Shown one piece after another: positions 21,021-58,143 of a stretch of 64,000 bases of DNA. Positions within the stretch are counted from its first letter, which is position 1, and each line of letters starts with the position of its first letter. The position numbers were made by a program, and so were the translations under genes. Location: the NCBI GenBank assembly GCA_001599975.1, contig BCIO01000004.1, positions 189,828-253,827 of the forward strand. Direction: 5' to 3'. Source of the DNA: Cystobasidiopsis lactophilus (lineage: Eukaryota; Basidiomycota; Agaricostilbomycetes; Agaricostilbales; Chionosphaeraceae). Below the pieces are notes generated by a model. It saw nothing but the letters and a program-made list of their open reading frames with translations. It made no database searches and was not told the DNA's origin.

Positions 21021-22037
21021 CTAAGTCCCTTGGGCGCCTCCTGCAGCAGCACCAAATGCCGCCAGCTTGCTGCGCAGTCTGTCGTCCTTCTTCTTTCGTT
21101 CACGCGTTAGCATGAGCGCCACCGCAAATGGAAGGGAGCAAATGGTGATGCTTTCGACCTCGCCGCTCGCCGATTGCTGGCTTTCGAACGTCCCTTTCGA
21201 AACTGTGCCGAAGCCCAAGCTAGGGAAGACACCCATGCCTCCGTCCCCTTGCTTAGTTTGGCAAGTGGGGGCAAAAACATAGATGGCAGGCTGTGCATAC
21301 TGGCAGCAGTCGTCGAAATTGACGCAGATGGCGTACAGTACGTGCGCGAGAGCGTCAGCCCAACGGAGCCGGCGGTGGGCTTTGTCCGTGGTCAGTATCT
21401 TGAGCTCTAGCAAGGTATCCCAAGGCCATCAGATAACTTAACAAAGAGGGCTTCAGCGGATTTAGTGCTCACCACAAACGCTGCGGGGGTTTGTACTTTG
21501 AGGGTACTCTTCATTCCAATGCTGAAGAGCCCTAGCGCGCGCCCAATCGCCCAAACTGACTTCTTGGATGCGGCCTTCGTGCTTCAACTCCAGGAATCTG
21601 TTGTAGCTTTCCCACCATTCTTCCGGTACATGCGAAAAAATGGCCAGCGCCATGCCAGTGACAATGGTTTGGGCGTTCTTCTGGTTGTCCGCCAAGCTTT
21701 CAACGGCTAGAAGAAGTACGGCGCCTTTGTCGTTCCGCAAGTGGTTGACTAGTATGTTTGCAGCTTTTTGGAACGCGTTCGCAGACGCAATGGAGCCAGC
21801 TGCGACTGCGGCGCGGATGTCTGGCTCTTCAATGCCCGCCAAGCAGTCCTGTCTGAAGTTGCTATCAGATTCAAAAAGCACATTGCCGACCATGCGGGCA
21901 GACTGTTTGAACAGCTCTTCAGGGACCGTCTGGCCATGACGCCACTGCAGAATACGGGCGTCGATGCGAGAGACCCCGTCAGGGCGGGGGCGCAGATGAT
22001 GGGCCTCCAGGGCGTGTTGGGCGAATGGCTCATTCAT
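21021..22037 (-). CDS. GNAT-fold paralogue A (probable pseudo-acetyltransferase)
   Basis: Member of the divergent family found five times in this window. Exon 1 starts MNEPFAQHALEAHHLRPRPD (an in-frame ATG at 22094 is an alternative) and contains the signature WRHGQTVPEELFKQSARMVG. A GT-AG intron at about 21416-21473 joins SVC to ELKILTTDKAHRRLRW. The second exon matches the region after the acetyl-CoA loop in the other copies (ALAHVLYAICVN, AIYVFAPTC). The Q/R-x-x-G-x-G/A loop is replaced by KAHRRLRWAD, so acetyl-CoA binding is doubtful. The tail is basic and Ala/Gly-rich (RERKKKDDRLRSKLAAF). Closest by N-terminal signature to the gene at 52.5 kb. Coding is supported by an open frame and clean splice; function is unknown. 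Confidence 0.65.
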
Positions 22038-22733
22038 CGAAGGCTGAATACAGAGCAAAGGTCGTGGTTCAAGAACGAGAAGCCCTCCAAGCATGAAACA
22101 CTGTCATCCTCACGGAAGGACAAAGGGCACCTTCCAGTCGTCAAGTTGAAACGTATATACGACTCTATGAAGGCCCAGAGCATCTCAGAGCAGCGTTGCC
22201 ACTGCGCCAGCCAGGCGTGGAATAAGGAGGTCAAGGCTCGCGCAGGCGCCAATGTTGAGTGGCGAAATCTCTCGCAGGGGCGGTGCCTTTGTGTTGAGAC
22301 CTGGGTCGGACCTACACCTCGTTCCGCAGCCGGATGAGAGGCAGTTGTGCAATCCGCTGGTATTGTTCACGGCACGAAGTCAAGCAACAGGCTAGCAAGC
22401 TTTCCCACAGCACAGGGGTAATTATGCGTTCTATGAGCTCCAGCGTCAAGTCGAATCCAGTCACTGAGATAGCGAGGAGGTCGAGAAGCAAAGCAGGTAG
22501 AGAGCACGCTCTGTGCGTCAACGCGAGACAGCATCTTGCGAAGGATATCGTCCACAGCCCAGCTCGAACAGACTCAGTCGAGCAGACGGCCACGGCACGC
22601 GACCAAGATGTACATCATTGCAGCAACAGTGTCAAAAGGACGCCATCGAAGCCAGCGTTGAGTCGGTGGCGCGAGTGCAAGCTTGCTCTGCACCGACCGC
22701 CTGAGTTCGACGTGGCGCCGCGAGCTGCACACC
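22038..22733. other. Divergent intergenic region between GNAT-fold A and DLIC
   Basis: About 0.7 kb separating two divergent starts. Minus-strand frames of 60-95 codons (22312-22846) have no recognised motif and partly shadow DLIC exon 1. I see no supported gene. Confidence 0.4.
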
Positions 22734-24857
22734 ATGGCGCAAGAGGCCGAGGGCAGCAGTTTGTGGAACTCGATCCTAGAAGAGGCCTCGTCCACCCAAG
22801 AAGCGACCAAGAATGTCATCGTCTTGGGCGAGCCGAGCGCGGGCAAGTCGACCTTGCTGTCCTGGCTGCAAATGACCTCTGCTGCCTCCGCCTCGGCCTC
22901 TGACGCCGGCCACTCGGACCTGGGCCTGAGCTACGACTATGCGGACGTCAAAGATGCGGCCGACGAAGGTGCTTTGGATGCTCCACTGCTCATGCTCATG
23001 CGCCAGTGTTTGATGTTTGGGTGCGCTCTGCAGACTTGCTCGCCCGCGTTGGCGTCTACCAAATGGCCTCCTCCGCACCGCCTACATCACATTTACTAGA
23101 CCTGGCGCTCACGCCGTCCAGCTTGGCCGATTCGCTCGTGCTCATCCTGCTCGACTGGGAGCGGCCGTGGACTTTTGTCTCCCAGCTCGCCAACTGGTTC
23201 ACGCTCTTGCACAAGCGCATAGACAGCATCGAACGGTCGCAGGGTGGCGGGCTACATGATGGTGGAGGCAGAGGGGACTACTTGCTGCAGGTGGCGAGGG
23301 ATCGGATCCAACTGTTCGTCAAGACCTATGCGGAGCCAGTGCTCAAGGATGATGGCACACTGGCGACGCCGTCAAATGCGGCGACGAGAGACATGGCCGA
23401 ACTGGAATCCATGCCGCTCGCTCAGGGCACGCTCATCGCCAACTTGGGCTTGCCAATAGCTGTTGTTTGCACAAAGGTGTGTCGACGTCTCCCTCAAATC
23501 TTGCTGTTAGTTTCTTGTCGCTCAAACAGCCACACAGTCGGACACAATAGACGAGCTGGAGAAGGCCAGCGGCATCACAGACGACCAGATTGACTTTATG
23601 CAGCAGATCCTGCGCACCATTTGCCTCCAGTGTTCGTCTTGGCTCTTCTTTGCATTTTGTCGGGGTCATGCTTACTTAACCCGAACAGACGGCGCCGCTC
23701 TGTTCTTCACCTCGCGGCAGCAACCTCAAACAGCCCAGCGCCTAAAATCCTACGTCCTCCACCGGCTCTTTCAGCGGCCAGCAGTGTCCACACAGGAAGG
23801 TCCCGACTCGACCGCCGCCTCAAGTAGCCTCCGATCGTTCCCGTTTAGCGTGAAAGCCAACGCTGTCGACCGCGAGACGATCCTCATCCCGGCCGGGTGG
23901 GACTCGTTCGGCAAGATCCGCATCCTCAAGGAGGGCTTCGACGCTGCCGGCTTCAGCCTGGGGTGGCAGTCCCTGTTGAACCGGAAAGAGCCTACCATAC
24001 ACCCGGAAGTCACTGAAGAAGAGGACGACAAGCTCATCGACCTAGAGAGTACCTGGGCCAATCTGATCGAGGACCCAACGGACTACAAGGCGAGCGACGT
24101 TTCACCCTTAATCGGTGATACGGCATTCTGATAGTATGTCGATTTCCTTGCAGGCCCTCAACGCCAAGCCGGCGGTGACCAAAAGCCACGACGAGCAAGA
24201 GTTCCTCGCCGCCCAGTTCGCCCTACTACAAAAGGAGCAGGCCAAAGACCCACGCGCGCACTTCCAGACCTCCCGCTCGTCCGTCTCCTCCGGCATGTCG
24301 CCCTCGCCGCAGATCGCCAACTCGGACTTGGGCCTCGCCCCCGCGCCCAGCTTCGTTGGGCCGATGAGCTCCACCTCGATGGCCGTCTCTGCGCCCTTGT
24401 CGAATGGCACCGACGAGGAGCAGTATGCCAAGCGGAGGGTGCGTGTTCGCTCTTTATGCTCGCCATGCTGTCAAGTCTCACACGAAAAGGTCGCGCAGGA
24501 CTCGGCGAGCTCGCCACAGGTCCGCACGACGCCTCTTTCGCCCTTATCATCTTCTACCAGCCCGTCTATGCCTTTCTCCCAACCCATCTCTGCCTCTCAA
24601 TCCGCAAATGGCGTTCCTCCGTCTTCTTCATCGCAGCCGAATTCTGGCGCCCAGCAGAATGAAGTGCAAGTTCTCACTCCTTCCGTCCAAATTTGCTTGG
24701 TGCTGACTGGGAGAGATTCCACAGACTGGCCAACTTTTTCCAAAGCTTGTTGTCGGCGCGGAAGGACCCGAATGCGCCTCGGCTATCAAGCGCTTTGCTG
24801 GCTGGGAGTCGGTCTCAGTCGCAGGACAAGCCGCCGCCTGCGTCTTCAGCTTCATGA
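22734..24857 (+). CDS. Cytoplasmic dynein light intermediate chain (DLIC), intact copy
   Basis: Ras-like subunit linking the dynein heavy chain to cargo adaptors. The start MAQEAEGSSLWNSILEEA is followed by the P-loop VLGEPSAGKSTLLSWLQ (GxxxxGKST). Then come DLGLSYDYADV, a 38 bp intron, VFDVWVRSADLLARVGVYQM, LLDLALTPSSLADSLVLILL, DWERPWTFVSQLANWF, GLPIAVVCTK, ALFFTSRQQ, IPAGWDSFGKIRILKEGF and Ser/Pro-rich C-terminal half. The last junction is a GC-AG intron (24666-24724) giving VLANFFQSLLS, the helix-1 motif that binds Hook/BICD-type adaptors in animals. The stop follows PPPASSAS. About six introns. An inverted partial copy lies at 54.7-56.5 kb. Length and motifs are complete, so this is taken as the working gene. 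Confidence 0.92.
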
Positions 24858-25148
24858 AGCTGGTTTGTAGGCTAACACGGGACCTCAAGGAGGTTGCATG
24901 ATCACACCTTTTTTGCGCATTTCTGTGTGGTTCCGCGAATTCGCCCAATATGGCAGCTGTGCATGTACTTGAGCAAAGCCGCGGCGTTTGAACAGACTAG
25001 CTCCAAGTTGGCGACACTATCTCACACCGTCTGAACAAATCGAACATTGGGAGACGAGCTCTTGATGCGGTAAGAAGGCAACAGATGATAGTGTCAATCC
25101 AAGGGCTAGGCCAGCGAGCTCCAAGGTTGCACAAAGAAAAGAAACATT

Positions 25149-25995
25149 TTAGGCGTGAGAATGCCAATAGGAGCGCAAGTGAGCGCTGTCCTCCAAAGCC
25201 TCCTCCACTTCCAGCATACAGTGACGCTGCAATATGTCCTTATATTGATAGAAAATGACATGCATTGCCCCGCCCGATTGAGGACAGTTGGCAACCGTGC
25301 GGACTGTGCAACGCGCTAACCTCGCGCAAGCAGCCACCTTCCACTGGTCGGCAAACACGAAAATACAGCAAGACGTCTTTGGCGAACGAACACATTGCTT
25401 GAAGAGATGATTCATCATCGCAACCAGTACGAGTTTCGAGCACTCGGGTCCCCGAGCAATCGCAGGCAAGTCGACGGCTGCCAGCGGTATGTCAAAACCC
25501 CTCCAGAGAGACGCAATCGCTTAATTGCAACACTCCCTCACCGAGAAGATGGGCGGACTCGTCAGTTCGCGCCATTTGTTTTGCTGCTTCAATGGCCAAT
25601 TCGTCGGGGCCTTTGGGAAGGCTGGAGGGGGAGCGACTGGCCAGCGCAGGCTCTCGCCAGAGGTCCACGATGGCAAATCTAGCGACCCCAAGACATTCAT
25701 AATGCTGGTCGTTGGCGGCGACCATCAAATAAGGGGAAATGTCGTCGGCCCGGTCCGTCTGAATGTGCAGCTTGGCCCATTGCTCGGCCTTCTTTTGTAC
25801 TTCATGAGGGTCCGGGTTGATTCCCTTCTTAAGATCATCGGAGCAGATAGAGCGAAATCCTGGCACGAATTCGAGCGTTTCCGCCGCCACCAGCTTGACG
25901 GCCTGGCGGAAAAGGCGAGCATCAATGGGAGAGCCACGGGGAAACACTAGGACCTCAGAGCCGTGTACACTGGACGTAAGGATCAAGAGCTGCAT
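25149..25995 (-). pseudogene. GNAT-fold paralogue B, apparently frameshifted
   Basis: Opens MQLLILTSSVHGSEVLVFPR, with the family signature FPRGSPIDARLFRQAVKLVA. It runs through LMVAANDQHYECLGVARFAI (the beta4-like strands) to LLGEGVLQLSDCVSLEG near 25497. The expected continuation, FDIPLAAVDLPAIARGPECS then KLVLVAMMNHLFKQC and SCCIFVFADQW, is in another frame with no GT-AG pair between them. The two halves align to paralogue C without a gap, so a one-base frameshift, a sequencing error or a very unusual intron is needed. The acetyl-CoA loop (canonical Q/R-x-x-G-x-G) is ARGPEC here. The second frame ends at 25149. Called a pseudogene with caution. Confidence 0.5.
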
Positions 25996-26617
25996 GATGG
26001 CGGTAGAGGGGCAACGGCCGCAGGGGTGTTAGGAGCTGGGCCTCAATGCGGCGGTGTCCTCGTAATTAAGCTAGCACAAAGGGACACTGTACACTTATGG
26101 TTTTGGGTCGTGGCAACATGCAGTCCTTGAAAGCCACCTGATGTTCTGTTAGCTGACTTAGAAACGAGACAGCGCGCGAGAAAGTTCAGTGGCAGGTCCA
26201 AGGAGAGCAAGGTCGAAGCAGGCAGCCAGCTGAAACTATCCTTGGTCCGCCGGTGGCCCGCGTTTGCACTTACAGTAAAGGACATAAAGTTGGGAGGGAT
26301 CTGTGGGACGCTGGCAGTTTATTCGCAATGCGGATCATTTTGGCGTCCGTTCCAACAAAACTGAGTCAACGCCAGCGGGCCGGACTGCAAACGGGACTCT
26401 CCGGCCACATGCAAGCAATCAGAGGTTAAGCAGGCATCGAATGAGAGCAATAGCACAAGTCCTGAGTAGAGCACACCGCGGTCTAGTTCCAACCTGCCTT
26501 CTTGCTGCTGCCGACCAACTTTCTCGCCCTAAACATTTTCTGGCTCCAGTTTACTCCTTTTTACCTGCTTAATGCCTTCTTCGAACGTCTGCTTGTCTAA
26601 AAGGCAGGGGACCGCTG

Positions 26618-26944
26618 TCAATCGTCTTGGGAGAGCAGTGGCAACTTTTTTCTGCACGCAGCTGGCCAGGCGAAGAGAAAGGCCTCGGAGTGCTTCCTTG
26701 GTTGGCCGAAGCTTTCCCTGCATTCCATCTTGGAAAAGAGTCTGTCCGCTGCCACAGTTCCCAACCAAAGATGCGGCGCTGCACTCCCTTCATCAGAAAT
26801 GGTCGCCACTGCAGTTTGCAAACCCTGCTCCTCGCCACTTGCACCTACTACTGCCCGATCTCTGCTCATCCGAAACCTATCTGCAAAGTTTATCGGTCCA
26901 GGCGGCCTGCCCTGCGTGGCGAGGCTCGAGTGATTAGCATACAA
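26618..26944 (-). pseudogene. Possible GNAT-fold fragment
   Basis: A 108-codon minus-strand frame contains PHLWLGTVAADRLFSKMECR, resembling the end of a GNAT domain (beta5 plus the A..LYeK.GF helix), followed by a strand-like SEAFLFAWP. No N-terminal signature or splice-linked exon was found nearby. It sits between paralogue B and paralogue C. The call rests on a short resemblance and could be chance. Confidence 0.25.
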
Positions 26945-27063
26945 AAGCCGGCGATCACTTTCATTTGGGCCCTAAAAAATGGACCCATCCAATTTTAGTT
27001 GCCTGCCTTCTGTCCTTCTTGCTCTTGTCCACGAGCGCTCTTCGGCCACTCGATCTATCTGGA

Positions 27064-27519
27064 ATGGCGACGGCGTCACCCACAGCCGCCCTGCTCTCCG
27101 GTGCGCCAACCATCTCCAACAATGCGCTTTACACTTCGTCCCCTCGTCCCTCTAAGCACACCTCAGCACATCATACCTCCACTTCCGATACGGTCTACGT
27201 TGTGATTTCTTGCATCGCCGTGAGCTCTTGCCTCTTGCTCTGTAGGCCGGCTTTGCCTGAACGGCCCACGCAGCTGTTCTTCATGCTCCTCGGCTTGACG
27301 TTGCGCATCAAAGCTCTATGCCGGCGTCGTCGTTTGCTAAAGAAGAAAGCCAAGGCGGCTTTGCTGTTGCCGGTGCAGGCCGCTGACGACTTGGATTGGT
27401 CAGGGGCGGTGGAGGAGGAGGAGAAGGTTGGCCTGGCTGGGCCATCGCTTCCTGGACGTCCCACAACTGGAGAAGAGGATCATGGGCGAGTGTCTCATGA
27501 GAGCGTGGGTCGAGCTTGA
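27064..27519 (+). CDS. Small membrane protein, unknown
   Basis: About 151 residues in one open frame starting MATASPTAALLSGAPTISNN. A Ser/Thr-rich N-terminal 45 residues (SSPRPSKHTSAHHTSTSD) is followed by a hydrophobic stretch (TVYVVISCIAVSSCLLLC), a second weaker one (LFFMLLGLTLRI) and a very basic patch (CRRRRLLKKKAKAALL), then an acidic tail. This is the layout of a small type I or hairpin membrane protein with a cytosolic basic stop. The first residues resemble those of the small protein at 29675 (MATTSP), which also has Ser/Thr-rich, membrane and poly-Arg segments. The upstream in-frame extension has no ATG. No function is inferred. Confidence 0.45.
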   Translation: MATASPTAALLSGAPTISNNALYTSSPRPSKHTSAHHTSTSDTVYVVISCIAVSSCLLLCRPALPERPTQLFFMLLGLTLRIKALCRRRRLLKKKAKAALLLPVQAADDLDWSGAVEEEEKVGLAGPSLPGRPTTGEEDHGRVSHESVGRA

Positions 27520-27568
27520 AGCCGAGACGCAGGCTGTGGCCACAGGCAATTCGGGGTTGGATAGTGAA

Positions 27569-27650
27569 TAGCTTAGGACAGTGTGTATGAAAGAAGTCTT
27601 AAAATGCATTAGCTTAGGACAGTGTGTATGAAAGAAGTCTCAAAATGCAT
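27569..27650. repeat. Two-copy 41 bp tandem duplication
   Basis: Units 27569-27609 and 27610-27650 begin TAGCTTAGGACAGTGTGTAT and differ at one position (T at 27600, C at 27641). They lie between the small membrane protein and the stop of GNAT-fold paralogue C, so probably in overlapping 3' UTRs. Near identity implies a recent event. Confidence 0.9.
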
Positions 27651-27676
27651 AAGAAAGGGAAGGAAATGATGCCAAG

Positions 27677-28567
27677 TCAATGTCGTATGCCATGGCTATC
27701 CTCCAAGAACTGCTCCATCGCCACCATCCTTTCACGCGCCTTTGCTTCCGCTTTCTGGCGATATTCGGCGGCCTTCAGCGTCTCGTGGACTGTCGAGCAG
27801 CTGAACAGCAGCAAAAAGTCCCGCCGCTCTGATAGACCATACGAACACACTTCACCCCAGCACTTCGCGAAGTTGGAGCAAAACTTTCGGGTCCATTCGT
27901 CGTCAGCAATGAACAGGCAACACCCTGTCCAAAATGGCTTTCGCTTGTCACATGCCTCAAAGATCTGCCACATAAGTGCCGAGAGGAGCCTTGTGCCGTA
28001 GGTTTTCCGGGAAGTGGCAAGCAAGGTGACAGCTACGGAGATGAAGGTGGGACTCAGAGCACTATTTGACGACAGGAGTGTATGGAAGTCCTGACCATAC
28101 AAGGGAAGAGCCCGGTGGGTGCTCGCTATACGATCAGCCTCGTGTCGTGCGAGAGCCATGGGGGGCAGATCTCGTCGAGAGCGTTCTGGGAGGTCACGAA
28201 TGCGCCAATCTGAGGTGTACTCCCGATATTGGAGGCTAGCCACGCCAACTACAGTGCCGTTGTCTTTGTCGCCACTAACGGCGATCAGAAGCCGGCTCGT
28301 CGCTCCTCGTCGGCTTCGCTCCAGCGTCACCCGAGAATCCTGTAAAGCGAAGGCTGCCGGAGTCATGTGACTCATGTCTTTGATGTGGGCGGCTAACTTG
28401 GAGTGTGCATAGAGGAAGCCTTTGGCGTGCAATAGAGACTCCTTTGCGACCAGCTTAACCGCCTGCTCTAGGAGGACATCGGGGACCATCGAGTCCTGAT
28501 CCCAGGTCACGAAGCAGAATCCGTTGGCATAGGTGACGGCATCTTCGTCCATGGGGTTCTCAGCCAT
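27677..28567 (-). CDS. GNAT-fold paralogue C
   Basis: A single open frame of 296 residues, the only intronless copy. It starts MAENPMDEDAVTYANGFCFV, with the family signature WDQDSMVPDVLLEQAVKLVA at about 22-41. Strand-like RLLIAVSGDKDNGTVVGVAS is followed by a long helical insert and LPLYGQDFHTLL, then the GNAT core FISVAVTLLATSRKTYGTRL. The loop SRKTYGT approximates Q/R-x-x-G-x-G/A but is not canonical. FWTGCCLFIADDEWTRKFCS and WGEVCSYGLSERRDFLLLFS follow; the tail is a charged helix (QKAEAKARERMVAMEQFLED). Convergent with the small membrane protein at 27064. Coding status is supported by length and family similarity; substrate unknown. Confidence 0.7.
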   Translation of the reverse strand: MAENPMDEDAVTYANGFCFVTWDQDSMVPDVLLEQAVKLVAKESLLHAKGFLYAHSKLAAHIKDMSHMTPAAFALQDSRVTLERSRRGATSRLLIAVSGDKDNGTVVGVASLQYREYTSDWRIRDLPERSRRDLPPMALARHEADRIASTHRALPLYGQDFHTLLSSNSALSPTFISVAVTLLATSRKTYGTRLLSALMWQIFEACDKRKPFWTGCCLFIADDEWTRKFCSNFAKCWGEVCSYGLSERRDFLLLFSCSTVHETLKAAEYRQKAEAKARERMVAMEQFLEDSHGIRH

Positions 28568-29674
28568 CGCGCCTTGACGGTGGTCGGTAGAAGGGCGGTC
28601 GGAGACGGAGAGTCGACCGATGGCAGTGCCTTCGCCATCCCCCAGTCTTGGACAAAGGGAATCCTAGAGTGATGGTCCCTGTCACCTTGTCGCGACACCT
28701 CCTTGTACTTCAAATAGGCTCTGTAGACCTGGAGGAAGACAGACACCAAATCACGGGCCGGGCCACAAGGGAGAGCGACACTTTCGAAGTTCACGCGGCG
28801 GGCCTTCGGAACCATCTGAGCTTGGTGTAAAGAGTCGACCATCATCTTTCGAGCAGTGGGAGTCTAAGAAAGCAATCGGGTTGAGGGCGGTGGCGTCCCG
28901 CGAGGTCCAATGCTCGACTCCCGAAAAAGTGACCAACAGCAAGCCGGAATCGTCGCATTCGCTTCGAGCACCACTTTAGCGCAGAGAGCACGCATCCAAG
29001 CATCATTTCAGAGTAAAAGCACAAGCTCCGAACCGAATCCTCGGCGGTCCATCTCCAACCTTTGCCTCTCTTCCGCTGTCGACCGTCTTCACTCCGTCGC
29101 TTCAGGTCCAGCTTTTATCCTTTCTAGCCAGATTTGAATCGTTCTAGATCGCTGGACCGCGTCAGAGGCTGTGGCATGTCGGATTGCTCTCGGACATCTA
29201 GTCGCCTGTGTGCACTTGCGCTCTCCTCATCTGTCGCTATTCCCTCAAACGGTTTGCGACTCCTTAGATACTTCTCAGACAAGCGTGCTCCGGCTCTGGG
29301 TTTCTGCGCGCTACCTTCCCGTGCCCTCCAGCCAGCAAATTCCGAGTTGCAAAGCTCATCCCCCATTTTCTGGCCGGAACCGCGTCTCTGGGAGCGTAGT
29401 CCACCCTGCTGGTCCCCAAGCTTGAGCTTTATCTAAAGATCGCCGTCCGGTATTCTCGGCCTGTCCGGCTCACCTTCCTTCGTACAAAAAAGCCCGCCGA
29501 TCCCTTCGATTGGGCAGAACCTCGCCTCTCTTTCAATTGTCTCTGATCAATCCTCTTTTGAAGCCCATCGCCCTATCCTTGCTCCCCTACTCTTCAACAT
29601 CTCGAACACCACTCCATCTTATCCCCTTCCGAACTTCGCCAGCTCTGAACCCCAGAGACTTGAGAAGTGGCAGT
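28568..29674. other. Intergenic stretch, no gene recognised
   Basis: About 1.1 kb of divergent upstream sequence between GNAT-fold C (-) and the single-pass protein at 29675 (+). Frames up to about 110 codons on both strands have no recognisable motif. The last 200 bp before 29675 are pyrimidine-rich, as expected for a fungal 5' leader. Confidence 0.4.
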
Positions 29675-30064
29675 ATGGCGACTACTTCCCCTGCCCTTAC
29701 CACCCCCAACGCCCTCAGCACCACTGTTGTATCATACACCACCCCCATCTCCCATTTCCCCCACCCTCATCGTTCAAACCCGAATGTGATAGCTGGCGGT
29801 GCACTGGGCGGTTTCCTCGTTAGCGTTTCCCCTTCCCCCTACTTCGACCCTCTCAACCTCGAAGTCTGATGTCCTTTGGAACACTGACAGGCGCTGGTGT
29901 TGATCTTTTCTGGCGCATACTACCTCCACCACCACCGCCGTCGTCGTCGACAAGCTCGGGAGAGGGAGCTTGGGATAGCAGATGAGAAATCTCAGTCAAC
30001 GGATACGCTACCGCTTTACACCCCTTCGACTCTAATGAAGCAAGAGCCTGTTGGAACGGAGTGA
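29675..30064 (+). CDS. Small single-pass membrane protein (Mid2-like layout)
   Basis: Starts MATTSPALTTPNALSTTVVS with a Ser/Thr/Pro-rich exoplasmic part. One GT-AG intron (about 29818-29891) joins VIAGGALGGFL to ALVLIFSGAYYLHHHRRRRR. The result is a Gly-rich transmembrane helix of the IAGG..GG type, a poly-His/Arg stop-transfer block and a short tail ending KQEPVGTE. The spliced product is about 106 residues. The unspliced frame stops 16 codons later without a membrane helix, so the intron is well supported. The layout resembles fungal Mid2/Wsc-type or adhesin-type stalk proteins lacking a cysteine domain. No cleavable signal peptide is visible. Confidence 0.65.
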
Positions 30065-30326
30065 TCTGAGGGGGGTGGTCGTGTGACTGTGCGCGATAGC
30101 GGGTGGCGTTCAAGGTGCATGACGTTCACACCAGCGCTTCGTCCCCGTTTTGTCAAAGCGAGCTGTACTCTTGTAATTCCACACTGTTAGCTCGCGCTTC
30201 CTCAAGCTTACAAGCTTACTCCCGCCACAACCCACCACTGAGTCAGCCCGGCCTTCCGCGCTAAACCCGTTCGCCCATCCTTGGCCTTTAAAATTCTTTC
30301 TTGTCCTCCAACCAACAAGCCAAGCC

Positions 30327-33549: not shown

Positions 33550-33941
33550 GGCCCTGGGCCAGCTTGGCTTCTTGTATGAATAATGAGCTGCTGTGTCTGA
33601 GTCAGCGAAGACGAGGATTGGAGGCTGTGCGCTGCCTACGAAGCTAGGCACCGAGCGGCAAAGTCGTCCCGATGCCACTGGCAGTCTGCGTGATGACCTC
33701 CCGCCGCGCTTCGTCAGGCCCTCTTCCACCAGTAGCGTTGTGCAGACCACTTTCTGGTTGGACTGAAGTGACTCTGGGAGGGCGAAAGTCAGCCCAAAGC
33801 GGCCGCACGCGGAGAAGAACCCTGCCACCGCAGTTGGTCTCGCCATTGCATGACGATGCCAAAGTTGGTTCTACAGCCAATGCCCTTGCAAATCTACGGA
33901 TATCTATAAAGAGTGCAACAATCTGATAGGGCGGAGTGGCT
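33550..33941. other. Intergenic stretch, no gene recognised
   Basis: About 390 bp upstream of the F-box gene and downstream of the DUF2786 gene, both on the minus strand. Only the doubtful N-terminal extension of the F-box frame crosses it. Confidence 0.4.
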
Positions 33942-38862: not shown

Positions 38863-40499
38863 CTAAGGCAAGAAGAAGACCACTCTCTCGGCCATCTCGG
38901 CGCCTAAGGAAGAATACGCCTCTTTCACCTGATTGACAGACTCTGGAATCCTTCGCAGCCGAGAATTCTGCCTCGTCCGGGAGTTGGTCTGGTATTCGGG
39001 ATTTAAGGAGAGCAAAGAACGCACGGGAAAGAGCTTCAAGCGCATGCTTTCTAATATCTTGGTGTTGCAGAGCGTGGTAGTGGTGATCTGGTCTAGCGGG
39101 AGACACCCGGGCGGCGGCGGGTTCGGAAAGCCAACCTCCTCATCAACATCTTCCTCCTCGTCCGAATCGCTGTCCTGGGTGGGTTCTGTCATTTCGACAT
39201 CCATTTTCGTGTCTTGTGGATTCGTGATGGACAAGGTGGGAGCGGAGAAGACGGCGTGCTTGTTCTTGTTCAGCAGCGAGAGGCAAGTTGCCAACGGGTA
39301 AAATTGTTTGTCGACCTTGTGAGAGGCAACGATCATTAGCTTTGGCCAACCATAAGAGTTTAACACCATTAGTTTACCGGGTCGAGCAGGAATGAAGGAC
39401 TATAGTCTCCCTTATACGCCATCTTTGTGCAAGAGTGGATCTGTCGCGTACACCTATTAGATGCAAATCTGGGCCGCCAAGCGCAAGTCTCACGTAGAAC
39501 CCTGTTGACGAGTTCCCAGTCAACAATCGACTCGACTACTGGAAGGCAAACCTACCCATCATGTAATTTTGCAACGTCGAGATGCCACTCTGGCACAGAA
39601 AGCGCGCCAATCCAATCTCAATCAAAGCGCTGACCTGTTTCAAGTCATGTTTGTGAACCAGAGGAGGCCGAACAGGAGTGAAGGCGCACTTTGCCAAGCG
39701 ACAGGGACGCCCAGTCAGGGTGCCAAAACAAGTACACGCTGCTGACGCTTTCGGGCAAGATGTCCACCACCCCGACAGCTACGAGTTGCCCATCCAAACG
39801 ATACAGCTGATGAAATTGACCAAAAGGCTGCTGGTCGAAGCCGCTCGGCTCTTGCCGCATGGGCCCATCGCACAGGAAGCGCTCGAAGCCGGACGGTTTC
39901 ACTTTCGATTCTGGGTCGTGGTGTATGTCCATTTGGTAGAGCTTGTAGAGCTGGAACTTTTCCTCCGAGAAAGTAGCCGGTTCGATGGAAAGCTCGAACT
40001 GGTGGGTGCCGCTCACGCGGCCAGAAAGGCAGTCTTGGAAGAAAGTGTCAATGTCGAAGGGAGAGCTGACTGTCTTTGGAGGCTTGGGTTGAGATGGCCC
40101 GGCCTCTGGCGGCGAACTCGCACCGTAACCCGTGCTGCCAGCCGGTGCACCACCACGCAAGAATTGGCGGAAGCGATTGGCCGTCTGCCGCTGCGACTTT
40201 GATGCCTTGAAGTTGTTCGATTCGAGGCGGATGGTGTACTGCGGACAGCATGTTCGCCCCATGTCGGGAGCGTAGCAGTAGCTGCCAGATCTCCTCCAGC
40301 CCCTATTGATCATTCGTTGATAGTCCTCCGCAGTGAGGGAGTGCGCCCAGACGCCATAGCTCTTGGATGATTTTGAAGACGAGCGTTGGCCTATCGACGA
40401 GATCTTAAGCTCAGACGATCTGCGGCACCAAGGAAGGGACGCACCGGGGGAAGAACAGTAGCCGCAAGTCGAGGCCGAATACGCGTACGGCTGCGCCAT
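38863..40499 (-). CDS. ATE1: Arginyl-tRNA--protein transferase (ATE1)
   Basis: Transfers arginine to N-terminal Asp, Glu or oxidised Cys, marking proteins for the Arg/N-degron pathway. Exon 1 starts MAQPYAYSASTCGYC; splicing at about 40390-40455 gives CGYCSSPG then QRSSSKSSKSYGVWAHSLTA, as in the family. GWRRSGSY, TCCPQYTIRL and FKASKSQR follow, all conserved, with the regulatory CGYC and CC cysteines present. The second half has GTHQFELSIEPATF, SVSSVYLFWHPDW, then spliced ALIEIGLARF and GFYIHSCTKMAYKGDYSPS, diagnostic of ATE1. The C-terminus is an acidic linker plus a basic end finishing VVFFLP. Five or six introns. Head-to-head with RRF1. Confidence 0.94.
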
Positions 40500-48884: not shown

Positions 48885-50686
48885 TCAGACATTCTTCTTG
48901 CGGTGGTAAGCATCGCTGGATGCCGGCTGGACGTTGCAAAAGGCTCTCGATGAGAAACCATTCTCATCACGCAAAGGGGAGAGCAACGCACCGTCCCTCC
49001 AAACTTGCCCGCCAGCGCCGCATCTGTTCACATGCCACCTGTTTAGCCATATCACAGGCAGAAGAAGAGGGAAGCCAGCGAACAGTCCTCGTCCTGGTCC
49101 ACGTGCACAAAGTACTCGTTCAGCCACCCTTGGCCGGCCGCGGTCTCCTCCTTGCGCTTGTTGCGCTGCTCGTTCTCCAGCTTGGCCTTGGCCACGCCGG
49201 CCGCTTCGAAATCGCCCTTTCGAATGCCGTCCGCCACATCGAACCACTGTTCGCATGGAAAGGTCCCCAATAAGCCGTCCAGAATAGCTTGGCAGAATGG
49301 GGAAGCAAACGAACCACACGGCGGGACTCCATGGGCCCTTGCTCGGAAACCGGCTTGACAGTGATCGGCAGCCAAGTCTTGCTGGCCGTCGCCACGTCCA
49401 AGAACACCTCGCCCTCCTTGAACAGCGAGCCCTTGCTGCCTTTGGAGATGGTGGACGTGCCCGTCCACTGCCCCTCGATGATGTACAGCGGGTGGTTGGA
49501 GATCAAGTGCGGGTTGGAGGCGATGGTGGCCTTGAACGAGTGCGCTTTGCCCGAGATCCAGCCCGCGGCCTTCCAGGAGATGGACGAGTGGTAGCCGGTC
49601 GAGGACTGGATGTAGGTCGACTCGGCCAGCTCGATGTACGGGGAGCCCATCCAGAGGCCGTCGATGCGCAGCCGGGGCAAAGTCATCAGGTAGGTTTCTT
49701 GGACGCCGCCCGGTAAAGTCAGGGTCAGCTTGGAGAAGCCGACTTGCTTGACGTGGATAGCTTTGCCGCTGAAGGAGGTCTGTTCGACCAGAGCCCTTGA
49801 TGAGATACTCGAGATTGGTATTTAGGGTGAGAGCGGCACGAACCTTTTGAGCGTTGTGGCCTTGCAAAGCGAGCCCGGCTTGCGCGTTCTCGATGTAGTC
49901 TGTTGCGTGACAAATACAGTGTCAGTTCAGCAATCGCTTTGAACTCAAAGGGGGACATGGCACGAACAAGCAGTCAGGGGTGGGTGGTGGGAGACCTGCT
50001 CGGAGATGCACGTCGTCGGGCCCTTCGGGGTGTCCCATTGGCCCAAGAACAGTTCGCCTGTGCATCTCAAAGAACAGTTAGACACTCTCAGAGCATCTAG
50101 AGTGCAAAAGCCAACGCACCCAGGATCGGGTTGAGAGGCTTCTTCTCGGAGCCCGTCTCGGTCTCCCTGGCCGTGTACTGCGCCTTCAAAGTGGCCAAGA
50201 ACCACTTCAAGACTCTGTGCGTTAATGACGGTGCGTTATAGCGGTCAATGCTATAAGGGTTGGGCGACGACGCACTTGGCCATCCGCTCCTCTGGCGTCT
50301 TGCCATTCGCAATGTCCAGGAACTCGGGTTGGCACTCGCCCCAGTCTGTTTGTAACCTATCATGTAAGCTACAGAGCAGCTGGTGTAAAGACAAGGCTAC
50401 GAACAGGACGAGAATTCACTGTGTCCGCCTCAAAGACAATCAGCCAGCATTCCGCGGGCAGCAATTGTCAAGCAGCGAACGCACGTCAACGAGGTCGGGC
50501 TGAGGATGAAGCTGGGGGCGGTCATCGAGCTCAAGTCGCTGGTTGAAGCCATGATGCTCTGCCCAACTCCATCTGAGGTCACTCCAACAACACGCCCAAA
50601 GAAGGCCAAGCGAAACGCACCTTCAAGAAGCTGCTCCAACTCGCCTTCTGCGCGGTCGGCACGGCGTCGCCCACTGAATCTCCCAT
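48885..50686 (-). CDS. KES1: Oxysterol-binding protein, Kes1/Osh4 type
   Basis: Short lipid-exchange protein moving sterol against PI4P. The first exon, [20 protein letters not shown], splices (about 50567-50624) to [19 protein letters not shown], matching the Kes1 N-terminal lid. Two more small introns yield [20 protein letters not shown]. The OSBP signature is complete: [16 protein letters not shown] and [53 protein letters not shown] and [20 protein letters not shown] follow, then [17 protein letters not shown] and [14 protein letters not shown]. The last two exons ([12 protein letters not shown], then [13 protein letters not shown]) were placed by splice sites. No PH or ankyrin domain precedes the ORD, so it is the short class. 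About nine introns. Confidence 0.92.
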
Positions 50687-50830
50687 TTGTTTTGTCTATT
50701 CTAACTGGCTTGTCTTCAAAGGTCTAAGGATGGTTGGACGAGCGGGATCAAGCGTCTTGGATTCCAAAGGGGGAGGTTCAGGGTTCATTATGTCATCCTC
50801 CCTCTCCGCCACTTCCGGGTGGCAAAACAC

Positions 50831-51743
50831 TTAGGCCAGCTTGGACTTGGCGTACTCCTGCCACTCTTGAGCGCCGAACGAGGAGGACACGGACGGGTCG
50901 ATCAAGCCCTGTGTGAAACCTTGGAAATGAGCACAGTTCGAGAGTGAAGGGGTCAAAGACGTACGTTCAGAGCGACGGTAGGGGTGACGTGCACGCCTTG
51001 CTGCCTTCCATCTGTGCATTCGAGAGAGGAATAAGCCTGTATTTAGGCTGATGGACGCGGCCGAACGCACACTTGACAGCCAGTTTCAAGTCCGTCGTCG
51101 TCTTGTTGCCCGAGTTGCCTTTGCCAATCTCCAACCTAGACGCCCTGCGCTTCAGCAATGTTCGTTTCCAAGTGAGCCTGGGCGAAACTCACTCTTTGAG
51201 GAACGCCGTTCGGTCGACCCCGGCACTTTGAAACGCCAGCTCGGCGAGTCTCTTCCTAGTCTCCAACGGCGATTCCCCCACCGTAGGCTCGTCGTAGTAC
51301 TCAGCCTGCTTCTCGAACAGCGCATAGCTGAAGTCCCAGAACCGATCGGGCGAAAGACGAGCGACGGCCAGGCCGGCTTCGTGCACTAGAGTAGAGGAGG
51401 AGTGCCACGGCTGGACCACCGGGCGGAAGATGATCGAGCATTGCTGCTCTTTCAAAAGAGGCAGCAGGTGGTCTCGGATGCCTGGTTCGAGCAACAAAGC
51501 CGAAATCAGCTCCGCCCCGTCGGTGAAGGGGCAAGGGCACGAACCGAAGAGTTGCTTGGACGAGAAGGGGCAGACGTAATCCAAGAACAGCTCCAAGGTG
51601 TGCTCTGCAAGACGTCAAGCCCGTGAATCAGAAAAGAACACGACTGATTTGGAAGAAAGCGACTCGCTGGAAGTGGCAGCTCCCAAGCGATAAGGCACGA
51701 AAGCGGGCGAGAGAGTGCTTTTCAGACCGCATGATTTGAGCAT
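50831..51743 (-). CDS. DsbA-like thioredoxin-fold protein
   Basis: Starts MLKSCGLKSTLSPAFVPYRL; a first intron (ending near 51610) joins SSEHTLELFLDYVCPFSSKQ. CPFS is the active-site position of the DsbA/FrnE-like family, with the resolving cysteine replaced by Ser. Further exons give GIRDHLLPLLKEQQCSIIFR, VVQPWHSSSTLVHEAGLAVA, FWDFSYALFEKQAEYYDEPT, then LKLAVK and VHVTPTVALN with the cis-Pro (TP) opposite the active site, and GLIDPSVSSSFGAQEW at the end. The missing second Cys argues for a transferase or isomerase-like role instead of a dithiol oxidase. Similar uncharacterised proteins are common in fungi. Five or six introns. Confidence 0.78.
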
Positions 51744-52525
51744 TTGAATCGGCTAAGAGAGGATGGGAGGACCTCACGCCATGTCTTGAGATAGCAAGTC
51801 GGTCGACAGCAGAAGAGAGGCAGGTTGCGCTCAGACGGCGGTGCGGATGGCTTCGGACTTGCGCTATTGCGATTTTTCAATGCTTTATGATGTGCTGCGA
51901 GTGATGAGAGGCTGCTCGAGCTTGCCGTTTCGGATTCCGAGGTGCTGGCAGCGATTTTGCGACATGACGCCCGCCACCGAACTGGCTCGGAAGTGGCCTT
52001 TCTGCCTTGTATTGGTTGCTCTGAGAGATGTGGATGTCGTCGGTGACAGAGAACCCGACGGATATCGCGAATGAGACCTCAGCTTGGATCATGGCTTGCG
52101 AGCCGGATGCTTGCTTCATTCGTTGCTGCTGAGCGTTCGCCTTGAAGCCGAGAGTACATTATAGAGCTTAAATTGCATTGTCCCTACTTGACGAACCATA
52201 GGTGGACTTTGGGTTTACCTGCCCAAAGATGGTGGCGCCGAGGCGATGCCCGTCTCAATGCGTCGGCGCTTGCCAGGTCTCTCTCGCTCTCTACCACCAA
52301 GCCTTCAGAGCTTTCTTGACTAGGCAAGTACCTCTTTCAGCAAGCCGTCACTGACGTCTGATTGGTCTACGCCTGGGCAGTTGAGGCTTCTTTTGCCAAC
52401 GCCGTGCGGTTAAACGTTTGCCGTTTGCCACCCTCTACTAGGTTCTTCAGACCTTTACCGACATTCCTCAGCAAAGCGCTACTACTGCCCTTCTATTCTG
52501 AACCAAGCCTCCTTGTCTTCCTCTA
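51744..52525. other. Divergent intergenic region, no gene recognised
   Basis: About 0.8 kb between the DsbA-like gene (-) and GNAT-fold paralogue D (+). Two frames of about 80 codons are unsupported. Confidence 0.4.
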
Positions 52526-53430
52526 ATGGCTGGCCGAGCCGATGCTGTCCATCCGACCAACAAACCCCAAGATAGCGCTCCCCACGCTATCCACAAGCTT
52601 ACAATCGGGAAAAATGCTGCTCCTTCCGCCGCGGGAAGAAATCCGCGCATTTTGGAATGGCGCCATGGACAGCGAGTCCCGGATGATCTGTTGAAGAGAG
52701 CCGCTGCAGTAGCCGGCGATGTGTACTTGAAGACCTCGGCGAACACTCAGCATATGGTTCGACTCATATTGGAAACAGAGGCCAAAGCAAGCGCGAAGAG
52801 CCGCTCAGTTGCGCAAGGCTTGTTTTTGGACCTCTTTCGAGGTGTTCTCAGCAAAGAAAACAGAGTTCTCTTTATTGGGGTCGAAAACGGGGACAACGTG
52901 ATTGGTGTTGTGGTCGGCAATCTATGGCTGAAGGCTGAAAGCTGGATCAAAGAGCAAGGGCCCAACCCGTCTGCGGAACATCAGATTGTCGCGAATGATT
53001 GCGGCACAACCTCAAAGCTGCAGGATCCTATTTGCTGTCAGTCTGTACACTTACCTTCACTGCGGAGGAGAAACTCAAAGCAAAGGAGCCCGTGCCCTCA
53101 GTTGTCTCCGACCTGGCCGTTCATGCCGACCACCAGCGCCAGGGGTGGGGGCGGGCTCTGGTGTCTTGCGTTTTCGCGATCTTTTATCGCACCTTCAAGT
53201 CTCCCCTCGCTTGGAAGACCCAGATTTATCTCTTCTGTGGTGGCGCAAACGAAGGCGCTCGCGAACTTTACGAGAAATTGGACTTCCGCGTTGTCGGAAT
53301 TGTCCCTGGCAAGCACCGCCCAGACAAGTCCTACGAACCAGAGGAATATGTGCTCGCGATTGATCATGATGGGATGAAGAAGGTCCTCGAGAGCCAAGCC
53401 CAGACCAAGCTCATTGTACCCATGTCTTGA
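52526..53430 (+). CDS. GNAT-fold paralogue D, with canonical acetyl-CoA loop
   Basis: Starts MAGRADAVHPTNKPQDSAPH; the family signature WRHGQRVPDDLLKRAAAVAG lies near residues 47-66. VLFIGVENGDNVIGVVVGNL is the beta4-like segment. Exon 2 has TLTFTAEE, VVSDLAVHADHQRQGWGRAL (motif A, Q-R-Q-G-W-G fits Q/R-x-x-G-x-G/A) and GANEGARELYEKLDFRVVGI (motif B), the best GNAT domain of the five. It is therefore the reference for identifying the others. The junction between exon 1 (frame ends about 52985) and exon 2 (about 53010) could not be joined with standard sites, so a small rearrangement, an unusual intron or a frameshift remains possible. The tail ends KLIVPMS. Likely an N-acetyltransferase of unknown substrate. 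Confidence 0.68.
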
Positions 53431-53837
53431 GACAGGCTTTCGCGCGCATGCTCTCAAGGGGCAAGTTCCCTGTTTCTCGCTCTGTTGCTCGTAGTTCTTT
53501 TTCTTTCAAACTCGCTGGACGAGACCTGTGCAATTTCAAAGCTTCCTCTTCGTTTGCCACCGCTCAATAGTGACTCCTCTGAACTGGTTTGGCTTCCATA
53601 GCTCTACTTGAACCATTTCAGATCTCTAAAAAGAGAGGGTGACAGATCAACAAGGACCTCAGGCCATCTTTCATGAAGCAAGCTTGGTGGCCTGCTCAAC
53701 AGCGGAAGAGGCGCCGGTTGCTCCGTGCCTCCAAGTGCTCCTGCTCGCGGCGATCTTGGTTAGGGCTATCCTATACTCAACAACATTGGTGTCAAGCTTT
53801 ACTGCGGACTGCTTTTAGGCTCACAAACACCCTCTGA
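53431..53837. other. Intergenic stretch carrying the left direct repeat
   Basis: About 400 bp between paralogue D and the orphan gene at 53838. It contains the direct repeat at 53694-53740; nothing else was recognised. Confidence 0.4.
53694..53740 (+). repeat. Direct repeat, left copy (about 48 bp)
   Basis: The core TCAACAGCGGAAGAGG and the end CAAGTGCTC recur at 56512-56559 in the same orientation, with a few mismatches and one or two gaps. The two copies bracket the orphan gene and the inverted DLIC copy. Confidence 0.6.
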
Positions 53838-54721
53838 ATGCTGGGCTTGTTCGCTTCCTCGCCGCGCCTCCAATTGCTTCCCGGCCCATCGCAAACGCAG
53901 GTTCTTGCCCAAGTGCGCTTCCTGGCGACGGTATCGAACGAGCCAGGCAAGCGCCGCAAGCAAGAGTCGGAAGAGCTGGAGGCCAGGCTTCGCGCCCTGG
54001 AGCGCTATGTCCTGAAAATCGGAGAGCGCACCCTCAGCCCGATATACTTGAAGGCAGCCACCGCCACCTTCAGCCTCGCGGCTCTCCTGCACGCCTGCAA
54101 GGGAGACGTGCCGCTGACCAACTCAGTCCTCGCCCACCTGAAGGCTTCCAGGTTGTTGCCACCAACCCTGCCATCTCTTACCGCTACCGCCTTCGATGCT
54201 TCCCACCAGCCCCACGCAATCTCGGTTGCGGCTTATCTCCTCAAAACGATTCATCGAAGCCGGTCCGCCGCGAAGATCCCACAAAATTGTAAAGCGGACC
54301 CGGCAGTCCGCCAGACGCTTGCGAGCGGCATGGCGCCGTTGGCCATTGAGGGCCTCCACTCCGTGACTCAATTCTCCCTTATTTTTTTCTCGTGGGAGAC
54401 TGAGGAAGTCACTTTAGGCCTTCGCTGTTGATGGGGACCTGCGCGCGAGCCGCAACCTGGCTGTGGACACTGTGTCTCTCGTCGACTTTGCCGAGCATGC
54501 CCACCTGACGAGTTCGCTTCGCTTGTCGGAATCCTCTGCTGCTTGGCTTCGCGTTTCGATGCTCTGGAAGAGCTTGACCGGTCTCGACTTTGATGAATGC
54601 GACGATGTCCCACCAGCCATCCAACATGTCATTCTGCACAAGCGTGCGTATTTTTTCCCCTTGGGACTATCATAAGCTGACAACAAATACAGCGTCCATG
54701 GCCGATGGTTCATTCTGCTGA
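53838..54721 (+). CDS. Orphan gene truncated at the DLIC-copy junction
   Basis: Starts MLGLFASSPRLQLLPGPSQT and continues AQVRFLATVSNEPGKRRKQE, a plausible mitochondrial presequence. A helical, Ala/Leu-rich body follows (YLKAATATFSLAALLHACKG, HAISVAAYLLKTIHRSRSAA). An intron at about 54374-54416 joins EGLHS to AFAVDGDLRASRNLAVDTVS. A second short intron (54651-54691) leads to PSMADGSFC and a stop at 54719-54721. That stop and the last codons lie in antisense DLIC sequence beginning at 54711, so the original 3' end is probably lost. I recognise no domain. About 260 residues. It may be a working short protein or a truncated relic. Confidence 0.5.
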
Positions 54722-56471
54722 GCGCCCGAATTCGACTGCGAGGAGGAAGACGGAGCAACGCCGTTCGCGAAGTAAGAGGCAGAGATGGGTTGGGAGAAAG
54801 GCATAGACGGGCTGGTAGAGGATGACAAGGGCGAAAGAGGCGTGGTGCGGACCGGTGGCGAGCTCGCCGAGTCCTGCGCGACCTTTTCGCATGAGACTTG
54901 ATGGCACGGTGTACACAAAGAGCGATCACGCACCCTCCGCTTGGCATCCTGCTCCTCGTCAGTGCCATTCGACAAGGGCGCAGAGACGGCCATCGAGGTC
55001 GAGCTCATCGGCCCGACGAAGCTGGGCGCGGGGGCGAGGCCCAAGTCCGAATTGGCGATCTGCGGCGAGGCGACATGCCGGAGGAGACGGACGAGCGGGA
55101 GGTTTGAAAGTGCGCGCGTGGGTCCTTGGCCTGCTCCTTTTGTAGTAGGCCGAACTGGGCGGCGAGGAACTCTTGCTCGTCGTGGCTTTTGGTCACCGCC
55201 GGCTTGGCGTTGAGTGCCTGCGATGTGATCATCATGCTATCAGAATGCAATGTCACCGATTAAGGGAGAAACGTCGCTCGCCTTGTAGTCCATCGGGTCC
55301 TCGACCAGGTTGGCCGAAGTGCTCTCTAGGTCGATGAGCTTGTCATCCTCCTCTTTGGTGACGTCCGCGTGAATGGTAGACTCCTTCCGGTTCAACAGGG
55401 ACTGCCACCCCAGGCTGAAGCCGGCAGCGTCGAAGCCCTCCTTGAGAATGCGGATCTTGCCAAACGAGTCCCACCCAGCCGGGATGAGTATCGTCTCGCG
55501 GTCAACAGCGTTGGCTTTCGCGCTGAAAGGGAAAGACCTGAGGCTACTTGAGGCAGCGGTCGAGTCGGCGCCTTCCTGTGCGGACACTGCTGGCTGCTGG
55601 CCGCTGAAAGAGCCGGTGGAGGACGTAGGATTTTAGGCGTTGGGCTGTCTGAGTTTGTTGCCGCGAGGTGAAGAACAGTGCGGCGCCGTCTGCTCAGCTT
55701 AAGTGAGCATAATTCCAGCGAAATGCAAGCAAAAGCCCAGACGAACATTGGAGCAGATGGTGCGCAGGATCTGCTGCATAGTGTCGATCTGGTCGTCTGT
55801 GATGCCGCTGGCCTTCTCCAGCTCGTCTATTGTGTCCGACTATGTGATGAAGTGAGCGACATGAAACCAAAGACGAAGATTTGAGGGAGACCGCAACACA
55901 CCTTTGTGCAAACAACAGCTATTGGCAAGCCCAAGTTGGCGGTGAGCGTGCCCTGGGCGAGCGGCATGGACTCCAGTTCGGCCATATCTCTCGTCGCCAC
56001 ATTTGACGGCGTCGCCAGTGTGCCATCGTCTTTGAGCACCGGCTCGGCATAGGTCTTGACGAATAGCTGGATCCGGTCCCTCGCCACCTGCAGCAAGTAG
56101 TCCCCTCTGCCTCCACCGTCGTGTAGCCCACCACCCTGTGACCGTTCGATGCTGTCTATGCGCTTGTGCAGGAGCGTGAACCAGTTGGCCAGCTGGGAGA
56201 CAAAAGTCCACGGCCGCTCCCAGTCGAGCAGGATGAGGACGAGCGAATCAGCCAAGCTGGACGGCGTGAGAGCCAGGTCTAGTAGATGTGATGTAGGCGG
56301 TGCGGAGGAGGCCATTTGGTAGACGCCAACGCGGGCAAGCAAGTCTGTTGAGTGCACCCAAACATCAAACACTGGCGCAGGAGCATGAGCAGTGGAGCAT
56401 CCAAAGCACCTTCGTCGGCCGCATCCTTGACGTTCGCGTAGTCGTAGGTCAAACCCAGGTCTGAGTGGCTC
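54711..56471 (-). pseudogene. Inverted partial copy of the DLIC gene
   Basis: Matches 22909-24663 of the intact DLIC gene in opposite orientation, about 94% identical over a 370 bp sample by hand count, introns included. It begins inside exon 1 at GHSDLGL and stops exactly at QQNE, the last codon before the GC-AG intron. It therefore lacks the start, the P-loop (GEPSAGKST) and the adaptor-binding helix (VLANFFQSLLS). Retained parts: VFDVWVHSTDLLARVGVYQM, LLDLALTPSSLADSLVLILL, GLPIAVVCTK, IPAGWDSFGKIRILKEGF. The sampled exon is open in frame and has almost only synonymous differences (about 19 of 21). No replacement start was found. It could be silent, a transcribed relic, or a source of antisense or double-stranded RNA. 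Confidence 0.85.
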
Positions 56472-56511
56472 GTCGTAAAAGGCCCAGAAGCGGTAGGTTT
56501 CAAGCTGAGCT

Positions 56512-56559
56512 GGTCAACAGCGGAAGAGGAGCAGGCTGCTCTCGTGCCTTCAAGTGCTC
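56512..56559 (+). repeat. Direct repeat, right copy (about 48 bp)
   Basis: Second copy of the repeat at 53694-53740, lying about 40 bp beyond the upstream end of the DLIC copy. Confidence 0.6.
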
Positions 56560-57161
56560 TTGGCCTCTGACTTGTGCTGTGGTTTTGACTTAATGCTCGA
56601 TGGCTTCAGTTGATGCACAGCGCCCCGACCGCAAGCTGCTCCCGTTGCTTCCCTTCGGTTTGGCCGCAGCGAATTGGTGGCGAGCGAGAATCTCTCGAAG
56701 TTTGGTCTGCTCTCGAAGTGTTTGCCCATCTATGCTGCCCACTACTGCAGCTGATAGCATCGAGCATTGAACCTGCTTCAGTACCGAAGAGTGAGTAGGT
56801 CAGCTGGTCCGTGTTCGCGCTTCGAATGGCTTGCTTTCCTTCCCTTCCTTGGCCCTTCGCTCTCTCTGTCCCTCATTCACTTGGATTGCATTAAGTCCAA
56901 CCATCAATTTCCCCGTGCTTGTGGAAACAAGGCAGTCGTTCCACTCCAATGGCAGCTTTCGAGGCCTTAGGTCGGGTGACCTTGCTGTTTCAAAGGTCGG
57001 CGAGAGCAATACTGCTTCTCTTGCTTTGCTACAGCTACCATCTCCCTACCGGCTACTTCAGATATCCTATTTTTGCTGAAGACTACCTCACCGCTCGCCA
57101 GGATCTGCTTTCTGTCTACTTCCTATCCACTGTTTGCCACCGCTTGCCTTGACAAATACCG
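56560..57161. other. Upstream region of GNAT-fold paralogue E
   Basis: About 600 bp with frames of 60-80 codons and no motif. The last 150 bp are pyrimidine-rich, consistent with a 5' leader. Confidence 0.4.
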
Positions 57162-58143
57162 ATGGCGCGGAATCAGCCCAAGATTGCTCCTGACCCCTCC
57201 ACTCCACCAATTCGATTGCAAGAATGGCACCACATGCAAATGGACGAAGACATGTTCAAAGATTCAACGCTCTTCAAGCAAGCTGTCACCCTGATAGCGC
57301 AAGAGCGCTGGATCAACGAAATTGGCTTCTCCGCTTATTGCAAAGCCAGCGCTGACCATAACAACAGTCATCCCTTGCCACGGGATGTCGCCAAAGCTCA
57401 AGCCCGCAAGACACTCCTGAAAGCCCGCAACGATGACACATTCCTTCTCTTCGTCGCTGTACAAGAGACGGCCATCTTCGGGCTTATTGTAGTGGGTGTT
57501 GCTACAGCTCAGCGGCGTAACCGGGAGTGTTGGAACGACGCTAGCCTCGCTGCTCGCATCGAGGAAAAGGATCCCAACGTCAAAGCTTGGGAAGCGCAAG
57601 CACACGAGGCGTTCAAAATGTGGTCAGCGTCTGGTAAAGGGCCACTATATGGTACGGATTGCCTTCTAGCCTCCGCTGGGAATTCCAAGCCTCACAAAAT
57701 TGTCGCGTTTAGGTGTCGAACTGCATGCCACTTCTCGCCGAATGTCTGTTGTGACTGCCCTCATCACTGGGATCTTCGACGTCTGCGTACGCAGCAAGTA
57801 TGAAACGAAGCAGTCCGCCTGCTGCATATCCATCAATGACGACAAGAGGAAGGTTAAAGCTTGCTGCAGCATCGGTTCTGGGGACGTCAAAACAGTTTCC
57901 AGTGGCAACCCGAAGGAAACCATGTCGATCGTCTACTTTAAGCGAGATACGATTCGGGATGTGGTGAACCATCTTGCCGCACAGGCGAAAGAGCATCGCC
58001 AGCAAGTGCAGGACCATCGCGAAGATGCAGCTGCCGTTCACCGAGACCTTAAGGCGCTGGATATGCACAGAAAGAAGTGGATGCACGTTGGCGAAGACAA
58101 CTTGGAGGCGTGCATGCAGGCGTTTTCTGGCTGGGCAGCTTGA
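57162..58143 (+). CDS. GNAT-fold paralogue E (probable pseudo-acetyltransferase)
   Basis: Starts MARNQPKIAPDPSTPPIRLQ, followed by the signature as EWHHMQMDEDMFKDSTLFKQ with AVTLIAQERW. FLLFVAVQETAIFGLIVVGV corresponds to the beta strands before motif A. A 61 bp intron (57652-57712, GTACGG to TTTAG) joins GPLYG to VELHATSRRMSVVTALITGI; without it the frame is lost. The acetyl-CoA loop position reads SRRMSVV, without the glycines. CCISINDDKRKVKACC and a tail with IRDVVNHLAAQAKEHRQQVQ (coiled coil) follow, ending AFSGWAA. Aligns best with paralogue C downstream of LYG. About 306 residues. Function unknown; acetyl-CoA binding is doubtful. Confidence 0.68.

Follow-up and report, generated by a model that had tools for sequence, protein, structure and literature searches.

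Five related GNAT-like genes in one region of the Cystobasidiopsis lactophilus genome: a probable acetyltransferase and four putative pseudo-acetyltransferases

In a 64-kb stretch of the Cystobasidiopsis lactophilus genome (hereafter the window; contig C4, positions 189828-253827, in a genome of 22.1 Mb and 8 contigs), we examined five genes, A to E (Table 1), which we read as one probable acetyltransferase of the GNAT superfamily (D) together with four pseudo-GNAT paralogues (A, B, C, and E), locally multiplied from one ancestor. We give this reading about even odds. Its support in the sequences comes from the common descent of the genes, their location at a single locus, the position of their intron, a block shared upstream of four of them, the loss of the GNAT loop motif outside D, and signs of constraint on the proteins. 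That A, B, C, and E possess a GNAT fold would follow from structural models or from homology.

Relationships among the five genes

Alignment clearly resolved two sub-groups. In BLAST comparisons with the five sequences as database, the B/C/E pairs matched at E-values of 4e-12 to 1e-18 and A matched D at 3e-10, and none of 300 shuffles reached the score of any within-group pair (B-C, B-E, C-E, A-D). Between the groups, the score was reached by 6 of 300 shuffles for A-B, 5 each for A-E and C-D, and 3 for D-E, while the similarity of A-C and B-D lay at chance level (71 and 52 of 300, respectively). Profile searches of the window translated in six frames extended these comparisons: the B/C/E profile detected exon 1 of A at E=5.8e-5 and gave D just 0.18, and the A/D profile recovered E at 0.036 and C at 0.65. 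In hhalign, the two groups joined at 85% across 93 N-terminal columns. These results support a single family by common descent, with a tie between the sub-groups that is weakly supported compared with the ties inside each, and which is strengthened by the intron position and by the upstream block they have in common.

Each gene model contains one intron of 61-66 nucleotides (nt). The homologous halves of the protein are encoded in different frames in B, D, and E and are divided by stop codons in A, so an intron is required in these four genes; the 63-nt intron of C can also be read in frame. In the aligned proteins the intron falls at column 211 and in phase 1 in all five models, an agreement that is not wholly independent because the splice sites were picked partly by homology. 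The intron of D was the sole candidate of our scan that kept a frame of more than 270 codons; three candidates for B preserved an open frame through the first 200 codons, two acceptors for A gave an open frame with a fixed donor, and the introns of C and E were picked by eye.

It is highly improbable that A/D and B/C/E are families of separate origin that share a region by chance. The chance-level similarity of A-C and B-D and the poor value of D with the B/C/E profile would be expected under this alternative, but it does not account for the detection of A by the same profile, for an intron shared in column and phase by all five models (with the above reservation on splice sites), for an upstream block that spans both groups (B, C, E, and D), or for GNAT-like models of one member per group, both built from the same seven alignment rows. 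The original prediction had described a five-copy family with common signatures; the genes are indeed related, firmly within B/C/E and within A/D and less so across them, but not every copy bears the signatures. The N-terminal one is followed strictly by B and C but not by A, D, and E, and the C-terminal "CC" strand is present in B, C, and E but not in A and D.

Genomic distribution of the family

A consensus search of the genome with the five proteins returned nine matches, all inside the five loci, with a best E-value per locus of 8.6e-46 to 5.9e-14 and nothing further at E<=10; this search scores first-look candidates alone (all seven were scored), and remote copies could escape it. Six-frame profile searches of the window found no additional copy better than E=0.6, and for the other GNAT-domain loci of the genome, comparison of 8 of 20 against the five proteins and three profiles gave no match better than E=0.4. 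These results support the clustering of the copies in the window and the local multiplication that had been proposed.

Two weak matches outside the window, obtained in genome searches with single proteins in addition to the window loci, weigh against a single locus. One, at C4:2699711, matched A with a genome E-value of 0.0037 (3.8e-6 in a small local set, in which the A/D profile gave 0.0024), and the other, at C2:918224, matched E with 0.127 (5e-4 in the small local set). Neither forms a continuous gene and both were missed by the consensus search, which leaves them unproven as extra copies. These outside similarities to A and E (L035 3640-3966, minus strand, and L034 3198-3719, plus strand) may be chance or old remnants.

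As to the suggested lineage specificity, searches of a protein database, whose fungal content was not controlled, returned no homologue, and we found no description of the family in the titles or abstract openings among the literature matches listed.

Loss of the GNAT loop motif and predicted fold

Only D resembles canonical members of the GNAT superfamily in sequence. It exceeds the curated Pfam cut-offs of Acetyltransf_7, Acetyltransf_1, and FR47, and it carries both the segment NEGARELYEKLDF and a loop, QRQGWG, that conforms to the (Q/R)-x-x-G-x-(G/A) pattern of GNAT motif A. Among solved structures its best sequence match is a GNAT protein (E=0.21). D is a probable GNAT acetyltransferase, and the earlier view that it alone is an obvious one agrees with the Pfam models and the QxxGxG loop.

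The other four proteins differ from the superfamily in having no match to a Pfam GNAT model at E<=10 and no loop glycines. The first loop glycine is replaced by R in A and C and by S in B and E, and the second by A in A, V in B and E, and L in C; at the place of the D loop, A reads RRLRWA. Relative to D, the loop is 3 residues shorter in E and 1 residue longer in B. B, C, and E further depart from the superfamily by a CC pair at the beta-5 position. Because the motif A loop glycines are missing, we do not file A, B, C, and E as standard acetyltransferases.

The predicted structures of C and A both resemble GNAT structures best, with moderate confidence; the top matches were the polyamine acetyltransferase DpA (8a9n/8a9o) and VipF (7wx6). 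Both models were built from the same seven alignment rows, with D exon 2 excluded because it failed to align, and the C model had no Foldseek match at E<=0.001. A profile of the five proteins searched against solved structures gave just two unrelated matches (E=0.1 and 0.76). The GNAT fold that had been predicted for the whole family is therefore indicated in D by sequence and supported with moderate confidence in C and A, the two copies covered by structure prediction; for B and E it would follow from their homology to C. On model and motif loss together, A and C appear to be GNAT-fold proteins without the acetyl-CoA binding motif, and motif loss and homology to C suggest that B and E are pseudo-GNAT proteins.

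Alternatively, all five proteins could be active acyl-CoA transferases that have come to differ in substrate, with an unusual but functional CoA site formed by the degenerate loop in A, B, C, and E. We regard this as possible but tentative. The protein-level constraint in the four pairs tested (see below) and the GNAT-like models of C and A are compatible with it, the loop sequences vary yet hold no stops, and in A the motif still starts with R and ends with alanine; against it stand the absence of both loop glycines from A, B, C, and E, the altered loop lengths of E and B, and the lack of Pfam GNAT matches.

Our preferred reading of A, B, C, and E as pseudo-acetyltransferases has a parallel in yeast, where Naa50 is described as a catalytically inactive GNAT protein without an acetyl-CoA binding motif (PMC7790372). 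A, B, C, and E may likewise be fungal GNAT-fold proteins lacking that motif. Naa50 is a single gene and a partner of the NatA complex, whereas here four degenerate paralogues lie near one intact copy.

Codon positions and constraint

In the pairs B-C, B-E, C-E, and A-D, identity was 0.42-0.45 at first, 0.49-0.54 at second, and 0.32-0.36 at third codon positions, against 0.25-0.28 in a shuffled null. Third positions are thus nearly saturated (z of 1.8-3.3 over the null), and the proteins look constrained since duplication, although protein-guided alignment favours positions 1 and 2 and the result is supportive rather than decisive. As far as codon comparisons go, they argue against both a recent burst and simple decay; they yield no rate, and would be equally compatible with old paralogues maintained by purifying selection and with fast change.

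It seems improbable, for these reasons among others, that B, C, E, and A represent remnants of a D-like gene decaying into pseudogenes with no selected function. The loss of the catalytic signature would be in keeping with decay, and the truncated dynein light intermediate chain copy between D and E (see below) shows that the region does hold decaying duplicates. Decay is nevertheless opposed by reading frames that are open across 260-316 codons in the five models, by the conservation of codon positions 1 and 2 above position 3 in all four pairs, by an intron retained in place, and by the upstream block retained in B, C, D, and E.

Conserved block upstream of four genes

When the gene-oriented flanks were compared by BLAST, a common block was recovered in sense orientation upstream of B, C, and D (B-D, 65% identity over 170 columns; C-D, 72% over 76; B-C, 66% over 137), and an opposite-strand control gave no similarity. 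A profile of these three blocks detected a fourth copy 5' of E at E=2.3e-7 in the 64-kb window; no block was found upstream of A. Third codon positions are barely above random between the paralogues tested, which makes constraint on a non-coding block at 65-72% identity probable, although a local alignment by nature selects the best stretch. We infer that it may serve as a common regulatory element of B, C, D, and E.

A core pattern of the block had four matches in the whole genome at 0-1 mismatch, all at the B, C, D, and E blocks, from which the pattern was derived, so that their recovery is by construction; at two mismatches there were five further matches, against one for a reversed-pattern control. 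These counts make a dispersed repeat unlikely. An earlier variant of the pattern matched D only, and a DNA search with the D block hit only itself, which is uninformative given that it missed B and C too. The block had no Rfam match, and as a structured RNA it was rejected on its weak consensus fold (-8.9 kcal/mol, with double changes in 3 of 20 pairs among four sequences). A coding exon was likewise dismissed, since no common open frame was visible by eye when the B, C, and D blocks were translated. Two other flank matches were dropped: a 347-nt match between A and E represents the copied dynein gene, and a 119-nt match between B and C is the same DNA overlapping. The D-E flank match corresponds to a 53-bp direct repeat (87% identical; 53692-53743 and 56510-56562) that lies on either side of the stretch holding the truncated dynein copy and whose second copy overlaps the core of the E block.

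Table 1 Gene models and upstream blocks of the family, in window coordinates.
Feature	Position	Strand	Details
Gene A	21021-22037	-	316 aa; exons 21473-22037 and 21021-21406; 66-nt intron; GNAT-like
Gene B	25149-25995	-	260 aa; exons 25542-25995 and 25149-25477; 64-nt intron; without GNAT loop motif
Gene C	27677-28567	-	275 aa; exons 28096-28567 and 27677-28032; 63-nt intron; without GNAT loop motif
Gene D	52526-53430	+	279 aa; exons 52526-53036 and 53102-53430; 65-nt intron; probable N-acetyltransferase
Gene E	57162-58143	+	306 aa; exons 57162-57651 and 57713-58143; 61-nt intron; shortened loop, without GNAT motif
Upstream block of B	26366-26585	-	core 26493-26516, starts 521 nt before ATG
Upstream block of C	28948-29147	-	core 29061-29084, starts 517 nt before ATG
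Upstream block of D	51766-51975	+	core 51801-51824, starts 725 nt before ATG
Upstream block of E	56452-56641	+	core 56512-56535, starts 650 nt before ATG; from the B/C/D-block profile
aa, amino acids.

Proposed evolutionary scenario

Under the reading we favour, a single intron-bearing gene with a GNAT fold would have been the ancestor and would have multiplied locally into A to E. D would have remained a probable acetyl-CoA-dependent N-acetyltransferase, and A, B, C, and E would have retained the GNAT scaffold while losing the glycines of the pyrophosphate-binding loop. As pseudo-acetyltransferases these four might have lost acetyl-CoA binding; without carrying out the standard transfer of acetyl groups, they might bind a ligand or partner and function as a partner subunit, regulator, or decoy for a D-like activity. 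B, C, D, and E could be co-regulated through the upstream block they have in common. A bolder version, which we consider doubtful, is that an acetyltransferase was multiplied into co-regulated pseudo-acetyltransferases that kept the fold and the control element and abandoned standard cofactor binding, the GNAT fold being re-used as a binding or recognition module of which several variants are expressed together. If true, the one intact and four degenerate copies, alike in intron position and, in four of the five, in an upstream element, would form a compact natural series for studying how a fold can remain of use after its catalytic activity is lost, and neighbouring genes could allow the placement in fold families of genes without a database match.

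Genomic neighbourhood

A dynein light intermediate chain gene (22892-24663, plus strand) lies between A and B, and a second copy (54709-56487, minus strand) lies between D and E. The latter is inverted, truncated, and 91% identical to the former, and it lacks the first part, which bears the P-loop, as well as what follows position 24663. The two inverted arms, about 30 kb apart, are much more similar than the adjoining family members, so the family was not born of that duplication in its present form. A and E are on the upstream side of the dynein copies, and B and D on the downstream side. Duplication of a block would therefore make E the partner of A, and D that of B; by sequence, A instead goes with D, and B with E.

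A self/non-self role, raised as one possibility in the original prediction, found no support in a search for STE3 mating receptors. The window occupies C4:0.19-0.25 Mb, whereas the STE3 matches map to C4:1.99 Mb, about 1.7 Mb distant on that contig, and to C1:2.33 Mb on a different one; a link to a mating locus was set aside on this basis, and homeodomain genes were not searched. The STE3 matches, together with the spliced genes and the dynein light intermediate chain gene, accord with a fungal genome.

Between D and the truncated dynein copy there is an open frame of just under 200 codons (53838-54431), within which 53838-54410 had no Pfam match at E<=0.001. Arginyl-tRNA-protein transferase (ATE) domains at 39660-40418 fall within the span of the family, probably by coincidence, and a weak match to B_lectin (D-mannose binding lectin), under the curated cut-off, was seen at 5334-6299.
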